IMG/VR virus record: IMGVR_UViG_3300025645_000213
Coordinates: 1 to 35,095 of that record
Length of the DNA stretch: 35,095 nucleotides
DNA from: a virus
Strand: one strand, 5' to 3'
Below are positions 29,689 to 29,726 of the stretch, one piece after another (the stretch's first letter is position 1; every line of letters starts with the position of its first letter). The position numbers were made by a program, and so were the translations under genes. The notes beneath the pieces were generated by a model. That model searched no databases and had not been told where the DNA came from. It worked only from the letters and a program-made list of their open reading frames with translations.

Positions 29689-29726
29689 TTTTCAGTCCTC
29701 TGCTCTACCGACTGAGCTACCTAGGC
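29689..29726 (-). other. attP core: 5' 38 bases of a tRNA-Phe gene
   Basis: On the minus strand the sequence starts GCCTAGGTAGCTCAGTCGG, forms a perfect D-arm (GCTC with GAGC), and continues through GAGGA to the loop CTGAAAA, with anticodon GAA (Phe). After the loop it departs from tRNA: the 3' anticodon stem does not pair, and the T-arm and acceptor 3' end are absent. So this is a fragment copied from the host gene, not a working tRNA. The match ends in the anticodon loop, a usual crossover site for tyrosine recombinases. Confidence 0.85.

Follow-up and report, generated by a model that had tools for sequence, protein, structure and literature searches.

Phages and islands that integrate into tRNA genes mostly carry the 3′ part of the gene. 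Of the 3919 chromosomal islands tabulated by Islander, 3760 carry a 3′ fragment and 159 a 5′ fragment (PMC4383910), in line with the remark in the original prediction that many phages carry the 3′ half. In the 5′-fragment islands, as in the archaeal pTN3-type sites, the element interrupts the tRNA gene and restores it from its 5′ side (PMC4383910; PMC8371274). The closest described phages are T7-like cyanophages, in which four 39-bp attP motifs correspond to the first half of tRNA-Leu and lie downstream of the integrase gene. Integration of S-TIP37 and P-SSP7 has been demonstrated by PCR, and the S-TIP37 junctions are lost in int and attP deletions; no stable lysogens were obtained (PMC8776855).

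Other phages combine a short core with a complete tRNA gene of their own. Rhizobium T7-like phages (relatives of vTRX32-1) have a 12-bp motif in the host tRNA-Leu and a complete phage tRNA-Leu, and sequenced strains contain them as prophages (PMC8631192). In Fonsibacter, a prophage located in tRNA-Leu brings its own tRNA-Leu along (PMC6811365). CRP-810, which has not been shown to be T7-like, has 13 bp of tRNA-Thr together with its own tRNA-Thr (PMC11288001). The authors of the LUZ100 paper consider its tRNA-Leu possibly a relic of imprecise excision (PMC10134795). A contrary case is the HMO-2011-type phage CRP-3, whose core overlaps the 3′ end of tRNA-Met (PMC6918029). Our literature search returned, by title, no paper on the phage group described below; PMC8631192 covers the related Rhizobium phages.

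In the window (the whole 35,095-nt stretch of viral DNA analysed here), the minus strand of positions 29689–29726 reads GCCTAGGTAGCTCAGTCGGTAGAGCAGAGGACTGAAAA, which is identical to nucleotides 1–38 of tRNA-Phe(GAA). The 38-mer is a genuine half of a tRNA, starting exactly at the tRNA's first base and finishing with the final base of the anticodon loop. Its parts are the acceptor strand (1–7), TA (8–9), a perfect 4-bp D-stem (GCTC/GAGC at 10–13/22–25), A26, the anticodon 5′ strand GAGGA (27–31), and the loop CTGAAAA (32–38) with the anticodon GAA. After the core, the window continues with GCCCTTG and the tRNA-Phe genes with TCCTCGTGTC. The G, the first base past the loop, breaks pair 31–39, and the window then departs from the tRNA. 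The original prediction of a 38-base tRNA-Phe(GAA) match with a perfect D-arm, which stops at the anticodon loop and then loses pairing, is exact to the base.

Bacterial tRNA-Phe genes with exactly this 38-base start, which the original prediction proposed to look for, occur in 24 bacterial stretches (30 copies) of genome_contigs, a collection of one genome per species for 84,980 species with contigs of at least 3 kb. The copies run on as TCCTCGTGTC (29/30) or TCCTTGTGTC (1/30), and all continue with TCCT[C/T]GTGTC into the tRNA 3′ half. ARAGORN calls tRNA-Phe(gaa) at the match in all 14 loci submitted out of the 24, and no complete tRNA gene in the 35,095 nt of the window. With equal base frequencies, the number of chance 38-base matches expected in 35 kb is near 1e-18. 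Six of the 24 stretches (L003, L011, L012, L013, L015, and L017) contain the 38-mer twice, with starts 115–175 bp apart; ARAGORN was run on one of these six, L003, and calls two tRNA-Phe genes there.

Table 1 Features of the predicted attachment site and the adjoining genes in the window.
Feature	Position	Strand	Basis
Predicted attP core, tRNA-Phe(GAA) nucleotides 1–38	29689..29726	-	Exact match to tRNA-Phe genes
Anticodon loop CTGAAAA, probable 7-bp crossover region	29689..29695	-	Bacterial tRNA-Phe identity stops at its last base
P arm (putative), four tandem GTGGCG/GTGGCT in 9–10 bp steps, between integrase stop and core	29759..29796	-	Repeat and alignment analysis
P′ inner arm (putative) GTGGCGTGA, perfect inverted partner of 29759–29767	29665..29673	+	Inverted repeat
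P′ outer arm copy (putative) TGTGGCGTAA	29552..29561	-	Direct repeat; switches type along with the P arm in relatives
Tyrosine integrase gene	29800..30876	-	Pfam PF00589 (E 2.4e-14) and two SAM-like domains
Small MarR-like (winged-helix) regulator, adjoins integrase	30902..31213	-	HTH_20 (E 7.3e-5) and MarR_2 (E 1.6e-4), both below the Pfam cut-off
T7-like RNA polymerase, N-terminal part, first gene past core	28760..29542	-	RPOL_N (E 2.1e-10)
T7-like RNA polymerase, catalytic part, separate ORF	27105..28769	-	RNA_pol (E 3.1e-107)

The 38-mer is positioned 73 bp past the stop codon of the tyrosine integrase gene and in front of the T7-like RNA polymerase. In the direction of transcription, the minus strand encodes the MarR-like regulator and the integrase, then carries the 38-mer, and continues with the two RNA polymerase ORFs. 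Integrase residues R203, K239, H288, R291, H314, and Y323, which we take from motif assignment to be the catalytic residues, are invariant in all five aligned sequences (the window and four relatives). The RNA polymerase region (27105–29542, minus) is split into a 260-aa N-terminal ORF and a 554-aa catalytic ORF with a stop/start overlap, GCATGAGG. Both ORFs are recognised in 10 of 11 relatives (in L039 the second runs past the end of the locus; L094 is cut), and therefore a sequencing error is an unlikely cause of the split. The window also contains a gene for a class II (B12-dependent) ribonucleotide reductase (19086–20966, minus; Pfam).

The best matches of the DNA polymerase are Roseobacter and Pelagibacter phages, with LUZ100 close (46.6–47.9% among the best 15 of 3750); for the capsid, the matches include LUZ100, Rhizobium phages, and a Prochlorococcus phage (39.4–43.8% among the best 15 of 1358). 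All seven related phage records that we examined are classed as Autographiviridae. Annotations show regulator, integrase, and RNA polymerase in this order in HTVC109P, HTVC200P, HTVC119P, CRP-403, and CRP-114, the last with a small ORF preceding its RNA polymerase; LUZ100 has this order too, with a tRNA-Leu between regulator and integrase. The two-ORF RNA polymerase, the DNA polymerase, the capsid, and the gene order fit an integrase-bearing member of the Autographiviridae (T7-like), to which the window can be assigned on its sequence.

The window resembles P-SSP7 and S-TIP37 in being a T7-like phage with a tyrosine integrase and, directly downstream, an attP that matches the first half of a host tRNA gene. 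It differs in the tRNA (tRNA-Phe versus tRNA-Leu), and in that a known host and PCR-shown integration belong to the cyanophages (PMC8776855). Repair from the 5′ side is likewise shared with Islander 5′-fragment islands and pTN3-type sites, but the former are chromosomal islands and the latter archaeal elements (PMC4383910; PMC8371274). The window attP is a new example of the 5′-half site of T7-like marine phages and is not new in kind.

HTVC109P (MH598805) has the MarR regulator, integrase, tRNA 5′ half, and RNA polymerase in the same order as the window. Its core is a tRNA-Leu(TAA) half, which relatives of the window use as well. In contrast to the window, it combines this tRNA-Leu core with other arms, and its RNA polymerase is annotated as one long gene. 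The two Pelagibacter phages HTVC200P and HTVC119P and the Pseudomonas phage LUZ100 are T7-like and have integrase and RNA polymerase as in the window. A short anticodon-loop-like ACAGACTTAAAA follows their integrase, before the RNA polymerase, and a complete tRNA-Leu(taa) lies on the opposite strand just before the integrase (1114–1199, 1093–1178, and 1103–1188 in the respective loci L111, L112, and L116). These three phages and vTRX32-1 (PMC8631192 for the latter) are unlike the window in having a short core plus a complete phage tRNA-Leu, so that a spare whole tRNA, and not a half, would make good the damage. Two repair strategies would exist, in which the window group, like the cyanophages, would use a tRNA half and the others a whole tRNA.

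Repeated arm-type sequence motifs are present on both sides of the core. Past the core, an inverted copy of the motif is located at 29665 and a direct copy at 29555. The window contains 13 GTGGCG/CGCCAC hexamers, five of which fall in 29540–29830, and each of the other non-overlapping stretches of this length contains at most one. For a lambda-like integrase, the arm-type sites would be expected to have the layout of the GTGGCG motifs at 29552–29796. The core is also flanked by an imperfect direct repeat of 17 nt (76%; 29676–29692 and 29731–29747, 55-bp spacing). We assign it no functional role; by eye it is much weaker in relatives with Ser or Leu cores.

The exact 38-mer occurs in 20 viral contigs. 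The bases after the core are GCC, as in the window, in 17 of them and TCCTTTTG in three, which extends the tRNA match by four bases. None of the 20 has the tRNA 3′ half after the 38-mer or a tRNA gene within its locus. An integrase search gives 17 loci and a search with the alignment as query gives 21; the two sets overlap heavily, and many of the loci are the 38-mer viral contigs again. Relatives with integrase identities of 49–100% have the same arrangement, and the slot is filled with the 5′ half of tRNA-Phe, tRNA-Ser(GCT), or tRNA-Leu(TAA). When the window is aligned with all 17 integrase-search loci except L061, which is cut before the region, 14 of the 16 relatives have the identical 38-mer. 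L048 has one difference (T4C), which still reads as a tRNA-Phe start, and L060 has the tRNA-Ser(GCT) 5′ half between flanks that are conserved on both sides with the window group. Two loci with integrases about 49% identical, L085 and L086, have the tRNA-Leu(TAA) 5′ half. Scans with the halves detect the Ser half in seven viral contigs and the Leu half in 16, where the names tRNA-Ser and tRNA-Leu are readings of the loop, the search patterns having been cut at the loop and not against complete host genes. Judging from where the phage sites diverge, the core probably ends at the loop or up to four bases after it.

We compared 45 sites (the window, the 20 contigs with the exact 38-mer, L048, 7 Ser sites, and 16 Leu sites), 12 of which share 60-bp flanks with an earlier entry and are flagged as duplicates. 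Both sides of the core bear a direct GTGGCG or GTGTCC motif at 35 of these sites, and the main arm motif is identical on both sides in every case (35/35; 24 after removing flagged duplicates). Two sites are not scorable (L042 is cut; the far side of L104 has no direct copy), and eight have neither arm motif (L033, L035, L037, L062, L063, L065, L066, and L106). The two arm types and three cores occur in all six combinations, GTGGCG with Ser in L068 only. Residue 20 in the N-terminal part of the integrase (numbered from MSV) is R in 7/7 integrases with GTGGCG arms and K in 17/17 with GTGTCC arms, in a count that takes identical integrases once and comes from related, non-independent sequences, as do the counts for the arms. 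The truncated L064 and L068 are unreadable at this position, and L104, the arm type of which is unscored, has R. Residue 20 is a candidate specificity residue.

On a tree of 25 full-length integrases (L064, L068, L033, L035, and L106 are left out, and the midpoint root is for drawing only), the three cores need at least three changes, where the least possible is two. The integrase of L039, a site with a Phe core, falls in a group with 11 Leu integrases (100/100), without a resolved position inside that group. The corresponding slot is filled by Phe-type or Leu halves in a second integrase family (L033, L035, L091, and L092), and the flanks of L037 and HTVC109P are alike by eye. Four of the seven Ser-half contigs (L062, L063, L065, and L066) have other flanks, and a motif search found no integrase in these four. 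All three tRNA halves share AGG at 28–30, and bases 40–41 are CC at 37 of the 45 sites, AC at seven (Leu sites), and CT at one. Neither the 46-bp core region nor the tRNA-Ser core region has a match in 50,697 phage records (word size 28); these records contain 122 integrase relatives, all below 60% identity (23.5–29.1% among the best 40 of the 122).

The 38-mer is very probably the core of the phage attP, with arms bound by the integrase, a stem palindrome, crossover in the loop, and a 5′ half that rebuilds an intact tRNA-Phe. This reading is indicated by the end of tRNA-Phe identity at the last loop base, the position between integrase and RNA polymerase, the clustered arm motifs, the slot that is kept while the core switches, the covariation of arm motifs with residue 20, and the tested precedent in cyanophages (PMC8776855). 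Counting against it, the bacterial stretches and viral contigs examined contain no attL or attR, no promoter-like site for the rebuilt tRNA was detected, and no excisionase is among the genes identified in the window. We infer the binding of arms and half-sites, the place of crossover, the repair of the tRNA, and integration itself. The claim of an attP with the 5′ half of tRNA-Phe agrees with the core identity, the adjoining integrase, and the two-sided arm motifs.

In the proposed mechanism, the tyrosine integrase would recognise the AGG...CC palindrome that the anticodon stem forms in both the core and a host tRNA-Phe gene, bind the GTGGCG arm repeats on either side of the core, and exchange strands inside the 7-base anticodon loop. 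The AGG shared at 28–30 and the CC at 40–41 in 37/45 sites suggest that the palindrome is the core-type site and that the loop is the crossover region. The likeness of the anticodon stem-loop to lambda attB is described as general in a review (PMC8371274). Since the phage carries nucleotides 1–38, the tRNA-Phe assembled at the integrase-side junction, with its 5′ half from the phage and its 3′ half from the host, would be intact and the same as the original. Nucleotides 1–27 should be dispensable for crossover and needed for the repaired tRNA, and the phage keeps them. At the other junction, the phage RNA polymerase genes would come to lie behind the host promoter and host 5′ half.

This geometry bears out the original prediction that the host tRNA would receive its 5′ part from the integrated phage. 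For the new promoter context that it also considered possible, the geometry puts integrase-side phage DNA at the place of the promoter, but a scan of 29400–30100, which is weak and recognises sigma-70-like promoters only, detects no such promoter and no terminator (shuffle means 1.4 and 0.4, respectively). The rebuilt tRNA would therefore rely on transcription from the integrase side or on another type of promoter, and at the other junction host tRNA transcription could continue into the RNA polymerase genes. According to the review, a rebuilt bacterial tRNA keeps its original promoter with very few exceptions (PMC8371274); 5′-half sites would be among these exceptions.

The tRNA half could instead be a regulatory or decoy RNA (a tRNA mimic) with an incidental proximity to the integrase. 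In favour of this, the half precedes the RNA polymerase genes on their coding strand, and the two strands of its D-arm are complementary as read from the sequence. However, halves of two other tRNAs fill the same slot while the arm motifs stay, and the arm type covaries with an integrase residue, which makes a decoy highly improbable. The identity of the 38-mer to bacterial genes would also be expected if the contig were chimeric through misassembly or ended at the border of an integrated prophage, with the 38-mer being host DNA at attL or attR. We give this almost no credence, because phage sequence lies on both sides, the same flanks recur in 15 relatives with a Phe-type core (L045 is nearly identical to the window), and the tRNA 3′ half does not follow the 38-mer in any of the 20 viral contigs.

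It is also conceivable, though improbable, that the phage line integrated once and that the attP is now a defunct relic. No lysogens were found in the genomes searched, and the T7-like cyanophages integrate rarely, with no stable lysogen obtained (PMC8776855). Against decay, the 38-mer is unbroken in the 14 identical aligned relatives and still tRNA-Phe-like in the one with T4C, and the covariation of the arms with residue 20 suggests selection. A functional attP core remains the preferred reading.

By their titles, 21 of the 24 bacterial stretches with the 38-mer are from Methylococcales methanotrophs. In a 22nd (L010), the 50 upstream bases are the same as in one Methylococcales stretch; the misfits are L005 (Myxococcales MAG) and L023 (Termititenax MAG). 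The Ser and Leu halves of the sister phages were each found in none of the 16 genomes behind 16 of the 24 stretches at up to three mismatches; many of these genomes are MAGs and perhaps incomplete. For G015, the genome of stretch L021, the Ser half is absent from a sample of its phylum (0/398, ≤1 mismatch) and the Leu half from samples of its class (0/369 at ≤1 mismatch; 0/229 at ≤2, the second apparently repeating much of the first). Among 20 small genomes of the phylum sample, the Leu half is found in 0/20 at ≤3 mismatches and the Phe half in 4/20 with 2–3 mismatches. The order of one of these 20 gives 0/78 for the Leu half at ≤2 mismatches.

The idea that the 38-mer identifies the host is therefore borne out in part: the exact 38-mer is nearly confined to Methylococcales and points to them, whereas the absence of the sister Ser and Leu halves from the 16 such genomes examined speaks against them. 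The hosts of the sister phages may differ from that of the window phage. HTVC109P infects the SAR11 strain HTCC7211 and carries the Leu half, so SAR11-like hosts are possible for part of the group. Host assignment by an attP–tRNA match has been used before, and its authors expect no more than a broad taxonomic assignment from the match alone (PMC3861242). Prophages joined at the tRNA-Phe site, which the original prediction led one to look for, did not turn up. Every copy in the 24 bacterial stretches runs on as tRNA, with no phage flank at the 38-mer, and these stretches and the 20 viral contigs contain no attL/attR junction. A search for the integrase at E 1e-30, run without a positive control, gives 0/121 genomes of the order of G015.

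The attP lies between integrase and RNA polymerase and holds a 5′ half, which raises the possibility of a promoter swap on integration, in which the host tRNA-Phe promoter drives the phage RNA polymerase, the host depends on phage-driven tRNA, and the core is a swappable target cassette. We regard this as unlikely. The distance from the core to the RNA polymerase genes is 146 bp, with no predicted terminator in between. For the cassette, the tRNA half would have switched at least three times in the integrase tree under unchanged arms and integrase type. Against a swap, prophages are known for T7-like phages that repair by a whole tRNA (Rhizobium, PMC8631192; Fonsibacter, PMC6811365), indicating that an RNA polymerase beside attP need not alone prevent lysogeny. 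If true, a swap could tie host tRNA transcription to induction and could help to explain why 5′-half cyanophages integrate without stable lysogens having been found.

In kind, the site is an ordinary attP; it belongs to the less common 5′-half type, already known in T7-like marine phages. Less ordinary are the way in which tRNA halves are exchanged like cassettes while the arms stay constant, and the hypothetical consequence of a promoter swap. The window adds an uncultured T7-like phage group to the carriers of tRNA 5′-half attachment sites, a minority arrangement. A single integrase family in which two types of arm site occur with three target tRNAs, in every one of the six combinations, is a small natural experiment, indicating that the choice of core and the choice of arms can change separately. 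In addition, a host tRNA promoter placed beside a phage RNA polymerase would make a testable prediction on the effects of integration for both host and phage.
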